A DNA stretch of 64,000 bases. It comes from an uncultured Lachnospiraceae bacterium. Its GTDB lineage: Bacteria > Bacillota > Clostridia > Lachnospirales > Lachnospiraceae. The stretch covers positions 1 through 64,000 of the forward strand of contig CATKXR010000003.1 of assembly GCA_949840805.1 (NCBI GenBank), given 5' to 3'. Every line of letters begins with the position of its first letter. Position 1 is the stretch's first letter. This document shows, piece by piece, positions 351 through 49,188 of this stretch. Under the pieces are notes generated by a model. That model was not told where the DNA came from and made no database searches. It saw nothing but the letters and a program-made list of their open reading frames with translations. The translations under genes and the position numbers were made by a program.

Positions 351-1763
351 TTATACAGGATACACCCCATATTCCGTATTTGCAACTGACATATCAATCC
401 CTGTCTGCTGGGCCTCCCGATACTGGAAAAAATCCTTAGCCACGGACGGGAACAACGCATAAGTCAATACATCCTCATCTTGTTGTTTCCATCGGGCGCA
501 TTCCTTTTCAAATCGGGGAAGCTGAGGCCCGATCAGATCTGCAGGCCGGCAGGTTATCGCTTCTTCCTCCCCAATAATCCGCTTTTTAATCTCCGGGTCT
601 GCAGGTCTTACAGTCTGTCCAAACTCACCCAACAACAGCTTTTTTGATTCCTTCAACACCATTTTATAGCGTTCTTTACAGATCACATTCATCACTGCCT
701 GTGTCCCTACAATCTGAGATGACGGTGTCACAAGAGGCGGCTCCCCAAAATCCTTTCTGACTCGGGGGATTTCTTCTAAGACATCCCTGTATAAATCCTC
801 CTTTCCGGCTTCTTTTAGCTGTGCCACCAGATTGGAAAGCATTCCTCCCGGAACCTGATATTGAAGAGTCTTAATATTCACCCCCAGCATCTTGGGATTC
901 AATAATCCGCTCTTGATGGCATCCTCCCGGATCCCGGCGAAATAATCGGCAATCTGGGCCAGCTTTTCCTGATCCAACCCCGGATCATATGGCGTTCCCC
1001 GAAACGTCTCTGCCATCACTTCTGTTGCTGGCTGGCTTGTTCCTAATGCCAGAGGGGAGATTGCGCAGTCAATGCTGTCGCATCCCGCTTCCACTGCTTT
1101 CAGATAAGTCATGGATGCAACTCCTGCTGTATAATGAGTATGGACTGCCAGGGGCAGATTTGTAGCCTCCTTTAAAGCATGCACCAGTTCTCCGGCCTGA
1201 TATGGTGTCAAAAGGCCTGCCATATCCTTGATTCCCAGACAGTCTGCTCCCATATCCTCAATCCTTTTTGCCACATCCTTCCAGTAATCTAAAGTGTAGG
1301 CATCTCCCAGCGTATAGACCAAAGCTGCAATTGCATATCCCTTTTCCTTTTTCGTAGCTTTTATTGCAGTTTCCAGATTGCGCACATCATTCAGGCAGTC
1401 CATGGTTCTGACTACATCAATCCCATTAGCCACCGATTTCTGAATAAAATATTCCACCACATCATCCGCATAATGGCTGTAGCCCAGAAGATTTTGCCCC
1501 CTTAACAACATCTGCAAACGGGTATGTTTAAATCCGTCCCGCAGTTTGCGCAGCCGAACCCAGGGATCCTCCTTCAAAAAACGAAGAGCCGTATCAAAAG
1601 TTGCCCCTCCCCAACATTCCACCGCATGATATCCTACCTGGTCCATCAGCTCTGCTACCGGCATCATCTGTTCCGTACTCATCCGTGTGGCCAACAAAGA
1701 TTGATGTGCATCACGCAAAACGGTTTCCACAATTTTTACCGGCTTTTTTTCTTTTCCTGCCAT
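351..1763 (-). CDS. OadA/pyruvate carboxylase subunit B-like carboxyltransferase, no biotin domain
   Basis: This 470-residue protein resembles the carboxyltransferase half of oxaloacetate decarboxylase alpha or pyruvate carboxylase subunit B. The N-terminal HMGL-like TIM barrel starts with VETVLRDAHQSLLATRM, carries the metal-site motif AVHTHYTAG, and is followed by the conserved PYC/OADA domain. In this family the enzyme moves CO2 between a keto acid and biotin. The protein ends without the biotinyl-lysine (AMKM-type) domain found in full OadA, so a separate carrier would be needed. A GTG codon lies two codons upstream in frame, but ATG at 1763 has the better GGAGG spacing. It is last in the operon, 16 bp after ridA. 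Pyruvate from the diaminopropionate lyase is a plausible substrate; that is inference. Confidence 0.8.
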   Translation of the reverse strand: MAGKEKKPVKIVETVLRDAHQSLLATRMSTEQMMPVAELMDQVGYHAVECWGGATFDTALRFLKEDPWVRLRKLRDGFKHTRLQMLLRGQNLLGYSHYADDVVEYFIQKSVANGIDVVRTMDCLNDVRNLETAIKATKKEKGYAIAALVYTLGDAYTLDYWKDVAKRIEDMGADCLGIKDMAGLLTPYQAGELVHALKEATNLPLAVHTHYTAGVASMTYLKAVEAGCDSIDCAISPLALGTSQPATEVMAETFRGTPYDPGLDQEKLAQIADYFAGIREDAIKSGLLNPKMLGVNIKTLQYQVPGGMLSNLVAQLKEAGKEDLYRDVLEEIPRVRKDFGEPPLVTPSSQIVGTQAVMNVICKERYKMVLKESKKLLLGEFGQTVRPADPEIKKRIIGEEEAITCRPADLIGPQLPRFEKECARWKQQDEDVLTYALFPSVAKDFFQYREAQQTGIDMSVANTEYGVYPV

Positions 1764-1779
1764 CACAACCTCCGGAGCC

Positions 1780-2163
1780 TTACCGCTCTTTTTCTGCTAT
1801 TACTTCAATCTCCACCTTTGCTCCTTTTGGCAAAGCCTTTACTGCAAAAGCTGCCCTGGCCGGATAAGGAGATGTAAAATATGTATCATATACCTCATTC
1901 ATAGGTGCAAAATCGCCAATATCACTGAGATATACGGTCGTTTTTACCACATGCTCCAGCCCAAGCCCGGCCTGGGCTAAAACAGCCTTTACATTTTCCA
2001 GGGAAGCTTTGGTCTGTTCCTTTATATCCTCTGAAGGAAATTCCCCGGTTTTTACATCAACAGGAAGCTGGCCAGACACATATACCGTGTACTCTGTCTC
2101 GATTGCCTGTGAATAAGGGCCGATTGCCTTTGGAGCATATTCTGAAAAGATTGTCTTCTTCAT
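1780..2163 (-). CDS. ridA: RidA family enamine/imine deaminase
   Basis: This 127-residue protein is a typical RidA/YjgF/Rid protein, with the starting motif [12 protein letters not shown], the central [10 protein letters not shown] strand and a C-terminal [20 protein letters not shown] segment holding the conserved Arg. Family members hydrolyse reactive 2-aminoacrylate or imine intermediates released by PLP enzymes. A longer reading frame continues upstream, but ATG at 2163 with AGAGAGGAAT before it matches the family start. The same operon encodes a diaminopropionate ammonia-lyase, whose chemistry passes through aminoacrylate, so the pairing makes functional sense. A ~90-bp dispersed repeat separates it from the upstream permease gene. 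Confidence 0.92.
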
Positions 2164-46154: not shown

Positions 46155-47381
46155 TTATTCTATTGTCACCTTCATAAAATTCTTTTTCCCACGCTTTACC
46201 ATCATTCCATCCCCGGTAAAATCATCCTTGCCATAGGACGCCTTAATATCTTTTACCTGGCTTCCGTTTATGGAAACACCTCCCTGTTCCACATTTCTTC
46301 TGGCTTCCGAACGGGACGAGGCAAGGCCGGACTTCTGCAGAACTGCCAGAATATCAATCTTTCCGTCCGTAAAGTCCTCATCCTTCAGGCAATAAGACGG
46401 CATGTTCTCCAGGCTTCCCTGGCCGCTAAACAGAGCCCTGGCTGCTGTCTGGGCTTTTTGGGCTTCCTCTTCCCCATGAACCAGTTTGGTCAGTTCCCAG
46501 GCAAGAATCTCTTTAGCCGTGTTCAGTTGGCTCCCTTCCCATTTATCCATCTCGTCGATCTGCTCAATCGGCAGGAAAGTCAGCATCCTCAGGCATTTTA
46601 ATACATCCGCATCTGCCACATTTCTCCAATATTGATAAAAGTCATAGGGAGATGTCTTTTCCGGATCCAGCCAGACAGCGCCGGACTGGGTTTTTCCCAT
46701 CTTTTTGCCTTCAGAATTCAAAAGAAGCGTGATGGTCATGGCATGGGCATCCTTCCCTAATTTCCGGCGGATCAGCTCCGTACCTCCCAGCATATTGCTC
46801 CACTGGTCGTCACCGCCAAACTGCATATTGCAGCCATAATTCTGGAACAACATATAGAAATCGTAGCTCTGCATGATCATGTAGTTAAACTCCAAAAAGC
46901 TTAACCCCTTTTCCATCCGCTGTTTATAGCACTCGGCGCGGAGCATATTATTGACAGAAAAACATGCCCCTACCTCCCGCAAAAGCTCTATATAATTCAG
47001 CTTTAAAAGCCAGTCCGCATTATTGACCATCAGCGCTTTCCCTTCGGAAAAATCAATAAAACGGCTCATCTGCTTTTTAAAGCAGTCGCAGTTATGGGCA
47101 ATCGTTTCCTCTGTCATCATCTGACGCATATCTGACCTGCCAGAGGGATCTCCCACCATTCCGGTGCCTCCTCCAATCAACGCAATCGGCTTGTTTCCTG
47201 CCATCTGCAGCCGTTTCATCAGGCAAAGAGCCATAAAATGTCCTACATGCAGACTGTCTGCCGTCGGGTCAAAGCCGATATAAAAGGTTGCTTCTCCGGC
47301 ATTTACCATTTTCTTAATCTCTTCCTCATTCGTCACCTGGGCAATCAACCCCCGCGCCACCAGCTCCTCATAGCAATTCAT
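46155..47381 (-). CDS. tyrS: Tyrosyl-tRNA synthetase
   Basis: This 408-residue class I synthetase has the HIGH-type motif HVGHFMA, the KMSKS-type motif KKMGKTQSG, and a C-terminal S4-like anticodon domain ([18 protein letters not shown]). It charges tRNA-Tyr. Length is standard. A T-box riboswitch with a UAC specifier lies upstream on the same strand, giving control by uncharged tRNA-Tyr. Confidence 0.96.
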
Positions 47382-47511: not shown

Positions 47512-47816
47512 AAAACAAAAAACCTCATCCTTACTGTATCTCTACAAAAGGACGAGGCTGATTCCCGTGTTACCACCTTTTTTCACAGGCGGATTACGCC
47601 GCCTGCCTTAGCAGGCATCATGCTCTTGATGCCCTGGCACAATAACGGGTGCCGGTATACCGTCACAGCCTACTGAAAATCCTCCCTTTACAGAGATTCC
47701 TTCGTTCGGTGTGAAGCTCAAAGAGGTATTCACACTCCGTCCTCCACGCGCCTCTCATCTGCCGGCTGCTTTCTGTGTGGGGTTTCGGGATGCTACTTGT
47801 TCTTCTCATCGCTGCT
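47512..47816 (-). promoter_or_regulatory. T-box riboswitch (Tyr) of tyrS
   Basis: On the minus strand the leader contains the T-box core GGTGGTAACACGGG (47564-47577), and a terminator whose stem arms flank about 47524 and 47557 and end in TTTTTT near 47515. Upstream, a hairpin (47709-47715 with 47729-47735) exposes TAC at 47726-47728, the Tyr specifier. Uncharged tRNA-Tyr is expected to stabilise the antiterminator and allow tyrS transcription. The antiterminator pairing was not computed. Confidence 0.88.
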
Positions 47817-47912
47817 GTTTTTCAGTTAATGAGCATATTCTATCATGTTTTTCCCTGATCATCAATACTTTTATTGCAAAGAAATTTTCTTCTTTTTGTC
47901 CTCTTCTATCGT

Positions 47913-47920
47913 TATACTAT
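47913..47920. repeat. Left target-site duplication of palindromic element
   Basis: TATACTAT sits flush against the left terminal inverted repeat; ATACTAT (47914-47920) recurs at 48376-48382 flush with the right one. This is the pattern of a 7-bp target-site duplication. Confidence 0.65.
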
Positions 47921-48375
47921 ACCTTGTCGTGCAGAACTGTCTGTATATCAATATTGTTAAGTTATGGATTTTTCCAAAAGATCCGCAGGAGAAGAAGGAC
48001 AGAACGTTTTCAGACACGTTCTCACTCCGTTTTTCACGTAGCGGTACTAAGGCTGTAAAAGACACAGCCTAAGTGCCGACGTGAAAAGAGGGTCTTCAAA
48101 CGTTCTGTCCTTCTTCTCCTGCTACGTTACTGGCACACTTATATGGAAGGCGTTGCCCCCATAAAACAGCCGACAACGTAGCCTGTTCTGTTACCCGTAC
48201 CCCGGGAAACCCTCGAAGAACGTCGGCGCTTAATGAGCCGGGATGGTTTTTCCGGCGAATTTAGCGTCCGCTACGTTCTTCACGGAGCGGGAGCGCGTTT
48301 TCCGGGGTACGGGTAACAGGACAGGCGGACCTTTCGGAATCACTGTAAACAGCGTCAAGTTCTGCACGACAAGGT
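47921..48375. mobile_element. MITE-like palindrome-rich element, no ORF
   Basis: This 455-bp element has perfect 18-bp terminal inverted repeats (47921-47938 with 48358-48375; 21 bp if palindromic flanks are counted) beside 7-bp direct repeats. Inside are three more arms: a perfect 25-bp one (47985-48009 with 48098-48122) with inner stems; an 8-bp one (48121-48128 with 48175-48182) extended inward; and a 28-bp one (48182-48209 with 48298-48325) with inner stems. The arms abut each other, giving a multi-branched fold. No credible ORF is present. It resembles a non-autonomous transposable element, or a structured RNA gene that has moved. Confidence 0.72.
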
Positions 48376-48378
48376 ATA

Positions 48379-49188
48379 CTATTTCATCGCTTTTTTCACA
48401 TCTTTCTTAAACTGCTTCCAGGCATCCTCATTTTCTACATAATATTTGGGACAAGCCTTGCCGGAAACATCATGATGGCGGATCAAATCTTTAGAAGACA
48501 GCTCCAGCTCTTCACAAAGCCATGCAGTAAGTCGAACCAGGGAATCATAAGTCTCCTGACTGAATTCTCCGGTATCATCCGGATGACAGACTTCAATAGA
48601 TAAAGTATCAAAATTCCTTGGCGCTGCCGCATAAGTCACCTCAGAAACCGGTATGATCTGAAGTATTTCCCCATTTAATCCTACAATAAAATGACAGCCT
48701 CCCACCGTCCCTGGCTGCTGCGGATCCTGATCAGCCAGATTATCAAAATAGCTGCGGTTTGCTGCCGCCGAAGTTCCGGGATTCGCCACATAATGGATCA
48801 CAATATTATTGACCTGCTTTAATGTCACATCCGGCCGGGAAAACAAATTCTTGCGGATAAAGTTCTGCTCAATCCAGGAAGGGATCGCAACTTCTTTTAA
48901 ATTAACCGTGTATGGATGTTCATAGCCCCAAAGATAATATCCGCCTCCCACTCCTGCCGCCGCACCAATCGCAAATGCCAAAAAAGGAGCTGCTGCTTTT
49001 TTCAGAAAGGAAAAACCTTTCTTTTGCCTGCTTTTCCCCTGAAAACGACGGGGATTTTCCCCCAGACGCCGGATTTTCTGGTCTCCGCTATTGTTAGCAC
49101 GAGGCTGGATCTGTCGGATCTTGCTGTAATCTTTCTCGAAAATATCGTCCCCGGATGATTTGCCCATAGTGCTTTTTCGATCTTTCAT
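48379..49188 (-). CDS. Membrane-anchored N-acetylmuramoyl-L-alanine amidase (Amidase_2)
   Basis: This 269-residue protein has a basic cytoplasmic N terminus, one membrane span (about 62-82) and an Amidase_2/PGRP domain with zinc ligands in NIVIHYVAN, RHHDVSG and KACPKYY. It cleaves the MurNAc-L-Ala bond of peptidoglycan. ATG at 49188 has AAGGAG six bases upstream. Its stop codon (48379-48381) lies inside the right target duplication of the adjacent element, so the insertion left the coding sequence intact. Confidence 0.88.
   Translation of the reverse strand: MKDRKSTMGKSSGDDIFEKDYSKIRQIQPRANNSGDQKIRRLGENPRRFQGKSRQKKGFSFLKKAAAPFLAFAIGAAAGVGGGYYLWGYEHPYTVNLKEVAIPSWIEQNFIRKNLFSRPDVTLKQVNNIVIHYVANPGTSAAANRSYFDNLADQDPQQPGTVGGCHFIVGLNGEILQIIPVSEVTYAAAPRNFDTLSIEVCHPDDTGEFSQETYDSLVRLTAWLCEELELSSKDLIRHHDVSGKACPKYYVENEDAWKQFKKDVKKAMK

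Follow-up and report, generated by a model that had tools for sequence, protein, structure and literature searches.

Two related hairpin modules, set tail to tail between terminal inverted repeats, make up a multicopy element in a Lachnospiraceae genome

The stretch of DNA considered here (termed the window) comprises 64,000 nucleotides from an uncultured Lachnospiraceae bacterium. Within it a palindrome-rich element separates the leader of a gene resembling tyrS (46155-47381, minus strand) from the 3' end of one resembling an amidase gene (48379-49188, minus strand), both genes being named from their translations. Upstream of the tyrS-like gene is a T-box leader (RF00230, 93.8 bits, 47545-47818, minus strand), a separate feature that adjoins the element. 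The window's copy is bounded by 18-bp terminal inverted repeats, each of which is abutted by a direct repeat ATACTAT, and spans 455 bp in total between these direct repeats; when the direct repeats are included, the outer repeat pair amounts to 25 nt at 96% (repeat finder). That the terminal repeats are perfect and flush with ATACTAT was noted in the original prediction, and both features are seen in the sequence. It also described nested arms of 25, 8 and 28 bp; nested arms are real, but those of the two main hairpins, H1 and H3, are longer and slightly less perfect, at 31 nt (94%) and 30 nt (93%), respectively, by the repeat finder. The features are given below, where R1 denotes a covariance model built from 25 H1-type cores (alignment A1) and G-numbers denote genomes:

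47919..48377, no strand: entire composite with its terminal AT dinucleotides (ATRCC...GGYAT), which all 19 two-ended copies have on both sides
47914..47920, no strand: left ATACTAT; a 7-bp repeat at the window copy only (1 of 19)
47921..47938, plus strand: left terminal inverted repeat ACCTTGTCGTGCAGAACT (sequence, repeat finder)
47985..48122, plus strand: hairpin module H1, sense strand plus; arms 47985-48015 / 48092-48122; H1-type relatives in sister species
48010..48096, plus strand: core of H1; R1, 104.4 bits, this copy having belonged to the training set
48122..48181, no strand: hairpin H2, built by the 3' tails of H1 and H3 (sequence, predicted folds)
48181..48326, minus strand: hairpin module H3, the same module type inverted, sense strand minus; arms 48181-48210 / 48297-48326; H3-type relatives in G023 and G012
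48206..48302, minus strand: core of H3; R1, 60.9 bits, E 3e-12, R1 having been built without any H3 sequence
48358..48375, minus strand: right terminal inverted repeat (sequence, repeat finder)
48376..48382, no strand: right ATACTAT, holding the stop codon of the amidase-like gene (1 of 19)

The element thus consists of two related hairpin modules, H1 and H3, placed tail to tail within terminal inverted repeats, and its branched layout arises because it contains two inverted copies of one module together with a stem formed from their tails. H1 and H3 are about 70% identical in antiparallel, and the detection of H3 by R1, a model that had not seen it, supports a composite of one module type. 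As DNA the element folds at -145.1 kcal/mol against a shuffled mean of -61.0 (z -16.3) and as RNA at -253.9 against -133.6 (z -17.9); none of 100 shuffles folds as low as either value. As foreseen, the element has no gene of its own by the ORF list of the window: no ORF of at least 60 aa lies wholly inside it, and three short ones (115, 75 and 64 aa) cross its left edge. Nor does any Rfam family reach its gathering threshold inside the element, whose only match is at chance level (E 0.74); the window yields only the T-box and a tRNA, both outside.

The genome that holds the window (G000; 5.0 Mb in 152 contigs, an assembly 90% complete) contains 129 matches to the element, which were merged by hand into 41 places (loci L001-L041). 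Twenty-nine of these are internal and 12 are cut by contig ends, an illustration of how such repeats break assemblies. Because two cut pieces could be the halves of a single copy, the number of copies is put at no more precise a figure than at least 35. Thirteen near-complete copies lie 4.5-11.5% from their consensus. Both ends are readable at 19 of the 41 places, and it is upon these 19 copies that the analysis of flanks is based. Flanking sequences differ among copies apart from an AT that occurs at the same position on each side of the element in all 19, and that may either belong to the ends themselves or be a duplication of 2 bp. The ends are conserved as ATR...YAT, the inner C and G bases being somewhat variable; with the cut at CC...GG, 13 of the 19 copies have TA next to the left end and 14 have it next to the right.

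When ACC...GGT is taken as the ends, only the window's copy among the 19 two-ended ones is flanked by two identical 7-mers. With the ends set either at CC...GG or two bases outward (the settings that the comparison with shuffled partners covered, as distinct from ACC...GGT), direct repeats of 2-9 bp show no excess among the 19 copies. The window copy's flank is a TATAC-type tandem, so that its 7-bp repeat is taken to be a property of the target. The further copies with different flanks that had been anticipated do exist in number, but the 7-bp target duplication proposed along with them is not general, being absent from every other two-ended copy. The original prediction would also have counted against itself the lack of a second copy, or a fixed position with no empty site: copies are many, and an empty site for the window copy was not found, as none of the listed congener matches spans the tyrS and amidase-like genes in one piece. 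Where a congener has listed matches to both genes, these fall on separate contigs or, in G019, at distant places of a single contig.

At six loci a 158-bp inverted-repeat insert occupies one fixed point of the H1 loop (complete at L023, L026, L027, L074 and L208, and recognized at L028 from a split alignment). In the five complete cases the insert's ends read AGGAACTGTCTC or close to it. This is most simply read as a composite that went on spreading once it had acquired the insert. The proposal of a new non-autonomous element is borne out in this respect, by 41 places with differing flanks and by a subfamily that shares one internal insertion at six loci. The same genome also carries 72-bp palindromic repeats that share the element's right end (e.g., L071, L207 and L212); at several places these stand in head-to-tail tandem with AT between units. 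Several copies of the element abut such a repeat, with one AT between neighbours.

Each module type also occurs by itself, H1-type modules being present in G008 and G010, and H3-type modules in G023 and G012, all of these being sister species. A match to both halves of the composite in one piece was found in none of the 40 relatives searched, the longest covering 175 of 470 bases. Within the genus, R1 finds matches in 14 of 24 genomes, namely 83 in G000, 65 in G020, 53 in G006 and 41 in G016 among others, with none in ten; the 83 matches of G000 include both halves of the composite and weak opposite-strand echoes, and are not a number of copies. In an even sample of the order, 60 of 392 genomes contain matches, and all 60 belong to the window's family (Lachnospiraceae), in which they represent 31 genera, including Butyrivibrio; this order-wide scan applied tighter filters and scored only a handful of candidates in each genome, which makes its match counts lower bounds. 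Among named genomes, the exact core pattern occurs in at least 111 stretches, which are titled Lachnospiraceae, Butyrivibrio (including Butyrivibrio sp. INlla18), Clostridiales, Clostridiaceae, Eubacteriaceae or uncultured bacterium. One exact core pattern gave 0 stretches in viral contigs, and phage and plasmid records gave no match to the window element; carriage by phage or plasmid was rejected on these grounds. In the flanks of L042 and L063, short tandem repeats adjoin the base of single modules. No published description of the module hairpin was found, by title or abstract start, in the open-licence literature on Lachnospiraceae or Butyrivibrio or in that on REPIN/RAYT and bcr1. The 250 palindromic candidates from human microbiomes reported in PMC8040213 may include this module family.

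The tail-to-tail arrangement of H1 and H3 recurs elsewhere. In other genomes, 167 loci yield 16 close pairs of R1 matches, at most 600 bases apart (counted by hand, with overlapping loci taken once and same-place echoes left out). Fifteen of these are tail to tail; the remaining one, at L092, runs head to tail and joins two weak matches, and the other two arrangements do not occur. A count by regular expression over an overlapping set of 203 loci gave 5 of 5 tail to tail. The proportion of 15 in 16 indicates that modules habitually form such doublets, the window's being no accident. Module pairs are thus common in other genomes; what the searched relatives lack is only a match to both halves of the window's composite.

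Within the own-genome copies, H1 and H3 stay paired through compensatory changes, which holds for neither the terminal repeats nor H2. At positions with a Watson-Crick consensus, 30 of 1489 cells in H1 and 41 of 2005 in H3 depart from such pairing, with 25 and 33 compensated cells, respectively; the corresponding figures are 105 of 625 in the terminal inverted repeats and 111 of 642 in H2, with 7 compensated cells in each. (These figures come from the 54 rows kept after removing duplicates and alignments below 78% identity or 60 columns.) Covariance folding, which had been suggested as a check, likewise shows strongly conserved pairing across the wider family: 15 of 21 core pairs exhibit double changes, and 94.2% of core cells are paired as against 27-40% when partners are slid, both over 93 distinct rows in an alignment that was itself fitted to the model. 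At one pair of the constant core, 91 of the 92 distinct rows with letters there have U-A or U-G.

The outer arms behave differently from the core in that their sequences are free. Among 15 copies in G041 (taken to be Butyrivibrio) they are unrelated (mean best similarity 8.1 versus 7.7 for shuffled arms; best 15 versus 12), yet each copy has 22 to 58 paired arm positions. Over 121 modules the arms contain 4318 Watson-Crick pairs, 96 G·T and 102 A·C mismatches, which implies no preference for either strand as RNA; the 121 remained from 139 core matches after duplicates and arm scores below 14 were dropped, a procedure that favours well-paired modules, just as the regular expression used for cores favours canonical ones. 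In the window element's own family A·C exceeds G·T in H1 (15 sites versus 3), and the counts for H3 are 10 versus 7, so that strand neutrality is imperfect for H1 there, an asymmetry that is absent from the wider family. With regard to flanking genes, 59 loci (those shorter than 2800 bases being skipped) comprise 22 of the form +M+, 19 of -M-, 8 of +M-, 8 of -M+ and 2 undetermined, where M is the module; this amounts to no orientation rule. Open frames of at least 70 codons overlap the module at 20 of these loci, and 39 are free of them.

Modules can also be followed at orthologous loci. Eleven of the 15 G041 loci are common to G086, and two loci are common to G020 and G006 among those compared (20 of 65 G020 matches and 20 of 53 G006 matches). 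Over these 13 pairs the differences average 4.5% in the core, 11.9% in the arms and 7.5% in the far flanks, and at 11 of them the core changes more slowly than the far flanks. The two exceptions are L205/L182 (core 22.7%) and L360/L394 (12.5%), in the latter of which the arms have changed in matched pairs at an unchanged locus. A hand sum over the Butyrivibrio pairs gives 108 one-sided against 21 two-sided pair changes, 15 of the 21 keeping the pair, and this preponderance of one-sided changes means that strict pairing is not imposed among closely related species.

One presence/absence pair was found for a single module, at a locus where G041 has 288 bp and G086 has 6 bp; it may reflect a loss, since the arms of the G041 module pair at only 58 of 70 positions. 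The same gene gap holds modules with unrelated arms in G454 (L146) and G041 (L112), and several other genomes of the Butyrivibrio genus have almost no spacer there; because the G454 module at this place has other arms, a loss in G086 and a gain in G041 are equally likely. The idea that arms are made from the target by inverted duplication is not supported at the G041/G086 locus, the G086 site having only 6 bp. Among the matches listed from 79 genomes of that genus, the arm at the G041 locus finds itself, its own second arm, a 31-base partial match in G436 (E 6.7e-5), and otherwise only matches with E of 0.01 or more. Certain neighbours recur, a rapZ-murB-like gene pair in three genomes and a BipA-like gene in two (named from translations); no fixed insertion hot spots are claimed, as such recurrence is about the size of a rough chance expectation.

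Searches for an enzyme that moves the element took several forms. The envisaged longer relative, one sharing these ends and carrying a transposase, did not appear in end searches of the own genome, which allowed 2 and 3 mismatches. The one inverted pair that was followed, at G000:C42 25093-29099 within inverted tandem 72-bp repeats, was rejected as an autonomous element, its content being agr-like genes. This locus (L207, G000:C42:24501-29700) reads, from its translations, as an agr-type quorum-sensing cassette with an AgrB-like protein, a histidine kinase, a LytTR-like regulator and an HTH protein. Clustering of the proteins encoded next to modules revealed no recurrent transposase. The Y1 (HUH) transposases were considered separately: within the window's genus the presence of Y1_Tnp does not track module number (G006, with 53 matches, has a fragment only, and G002, with 0 matches, has one), 7 of 16 high-copy carriers outside the genus have no Y1 match at E 0.001, and modules number 0 in the 30 + 20 loci around Y1_Tnp matches. 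A RAYT/IS200 enzyme was accordingly rejected as the current mover, there being no link by presence or by adjacency. At L404 in G041 (1084-1869, minus strand), a locus with no module encodes a Y1 transposase-like protein of 261 aa whose C-terminal part is extended.

What, then, are the module and the element? A host site selected at fixed loci, whether for the nucleoid, as a gyrase or polymerase block, or as a transcription barrier, would be inherited mostly vertically with mobility being incidental; the slow core at most of the orthologous loci compared, the sharing of loci between G041 and G086, and the retention of the core across 31 genera of one family speak for such a site, but patchiness even within the genus, very unequal match numbers and the lack of an orientation rule with respect to genes render it rather doubtful. 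The lack of an orientation rule bears also on the notion, put forward in the original prediction as a mobile structured RNA gene, that the module is a structured RNA (a gene or a cis element) carried by mobile DNA. Strong covariation and the nearly invariant U-A or U-G core pair would be expected of an RNA, but near-equal numbers of G·T and A·C arm mismatches would not; together with the failure of any Rfam family to match the element above chance, this makes a structured RNA very unlikely, and that part of the prediction is not upheld.

The remaining alternatives concern how the element moves. An ordinary MITE derived from an insertion sequence of the IS630/Tc1-mariner type, whose members target TA, is in keeping with the short inverted ends and with the TA that appears at most ends when the cut is placed at CC...GG; it is unlikely in that the invariant dinucleotide is AT rather than TA, that end searches of the own genome turned up no transposase-bearing element with the same ends, and that the interior consists of two family-wide hairpins rather than a deleted transposase gene. 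On a REP or REPIN reading, the hairpin would be a GTAG-tagged palindrome that a RAYT/IS200-type Y1 transposase mobilizes in single-stranded form, and the window element an inverted doublet of such units. This reading has in its favour that GTAG directly precedes the inner stem in 19 of the 25 cores of A1 (hand count), that CTAC follows the outer stem in many G020 and G006 rows (judged by eye rather than counted), and that close pairs are tail to tail. Against it are the Y1 results described above, units of about 140 nt or more, and the terminal inverted repeats of the window element, so that it too seems unlikely. The module is not filed here as a REP because length and transposase association fail, although by analogy it may work like one.

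According to PMC8266576 and PMC3733652, REPs are intergenic palindromes preceded by GTAG and often inversely paired, and PMC8266576 gives a unit length of 20-50 nt; the words Firmicutes and Clostridi- are absent from the text of the 2013 REP survey (PMC3733652). Like the GTAG REPs, REPINs and BIMEs of Proteobacteria and others, the modules are many-copy palindromes with GTAG at the stem, inverted doublets, compensatory stem changes and a patchy distribution; unlike them, the modules are far longer, place their constant core midway along an extended stem of free sequence, and were found with no matching RAYT (TnpAREP), modules being absent from all 50 Y1 loci. With respect to the composite, two of the usual marks of a MITE are present, namely terminal inverted repeats and many copies at different sites without a gene of their own. 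Correia/NEMIS and RUP are MITEs with TA targets; they share with the element the lack of a gene, the presence in many copies, and short inverted ends that carry an AT/TA dinucleotide. The element differs in its interior, where two long hairpin modules stand inverted to each other, modules that are also found on their own across a bacterial family. The bcr1 repeats of Bacillus cereus are structured chromosomal repeats of a Gram-positive group; the likeness to them lies in this general description, and the core and composite layout are described here from Lachnospiraceae only.

The reading preferred here is that the element is probably a non-autonomous, MITE-like composite of two large REP-like DNA hairpin modules that would be moved in trans by an enzyme. 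Judged from the sequences, it is multicopy at separate sites, it shares one insert at six loci, and both of its module types occur independently in sister species. A transposase or recombinase acting in trans would use the terminal repeats as ends and an AT-containing target, which would become TA if the cut were placed one base inward; this enzyme may have been lost or may have escaped recognition. Against this reading speak the searches that yielded neither an enzyme nor an empty site for a window-type copy, the possible loss at the G041/G086 locus, the strand asymmetry of H1 in the own family, the two orthologous loci with a fast core, the one-sided pair changes in Butyrivibrio, and the frames that overlap the module at 20 of 59 loci. 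The module itself would work as DNA, either as an extruded hairpin or cruciform or as a folded single strand, with its constant core bound by a putative protein and with outer arms that would need complementarity but not any given sequence.

More generally, it is tentatively suggested that the module could represent a new class of genomic DNA hairpin, family-wide and often tail to tail, in which a protein would recognize the core and the arms would be free in sequence, their complementarity being kept up or restored, whether selection acts on it or one side of the hairpin serves as template for the other. On this view one such pair would have been packed between inverted ends, at the level of the species, and have become a single mobile unit, the window element. 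Arms that are wholly different between copies yet largely paired around a fixed core constitute a data set in which, for bacterial palindromic repeats, selection on DNA hairpins can be set against templated palindrome repair. One odd palindrome leads to a large repeat class in the Lachnospiraceae, which are abundant bacteria of the gut and rumen.
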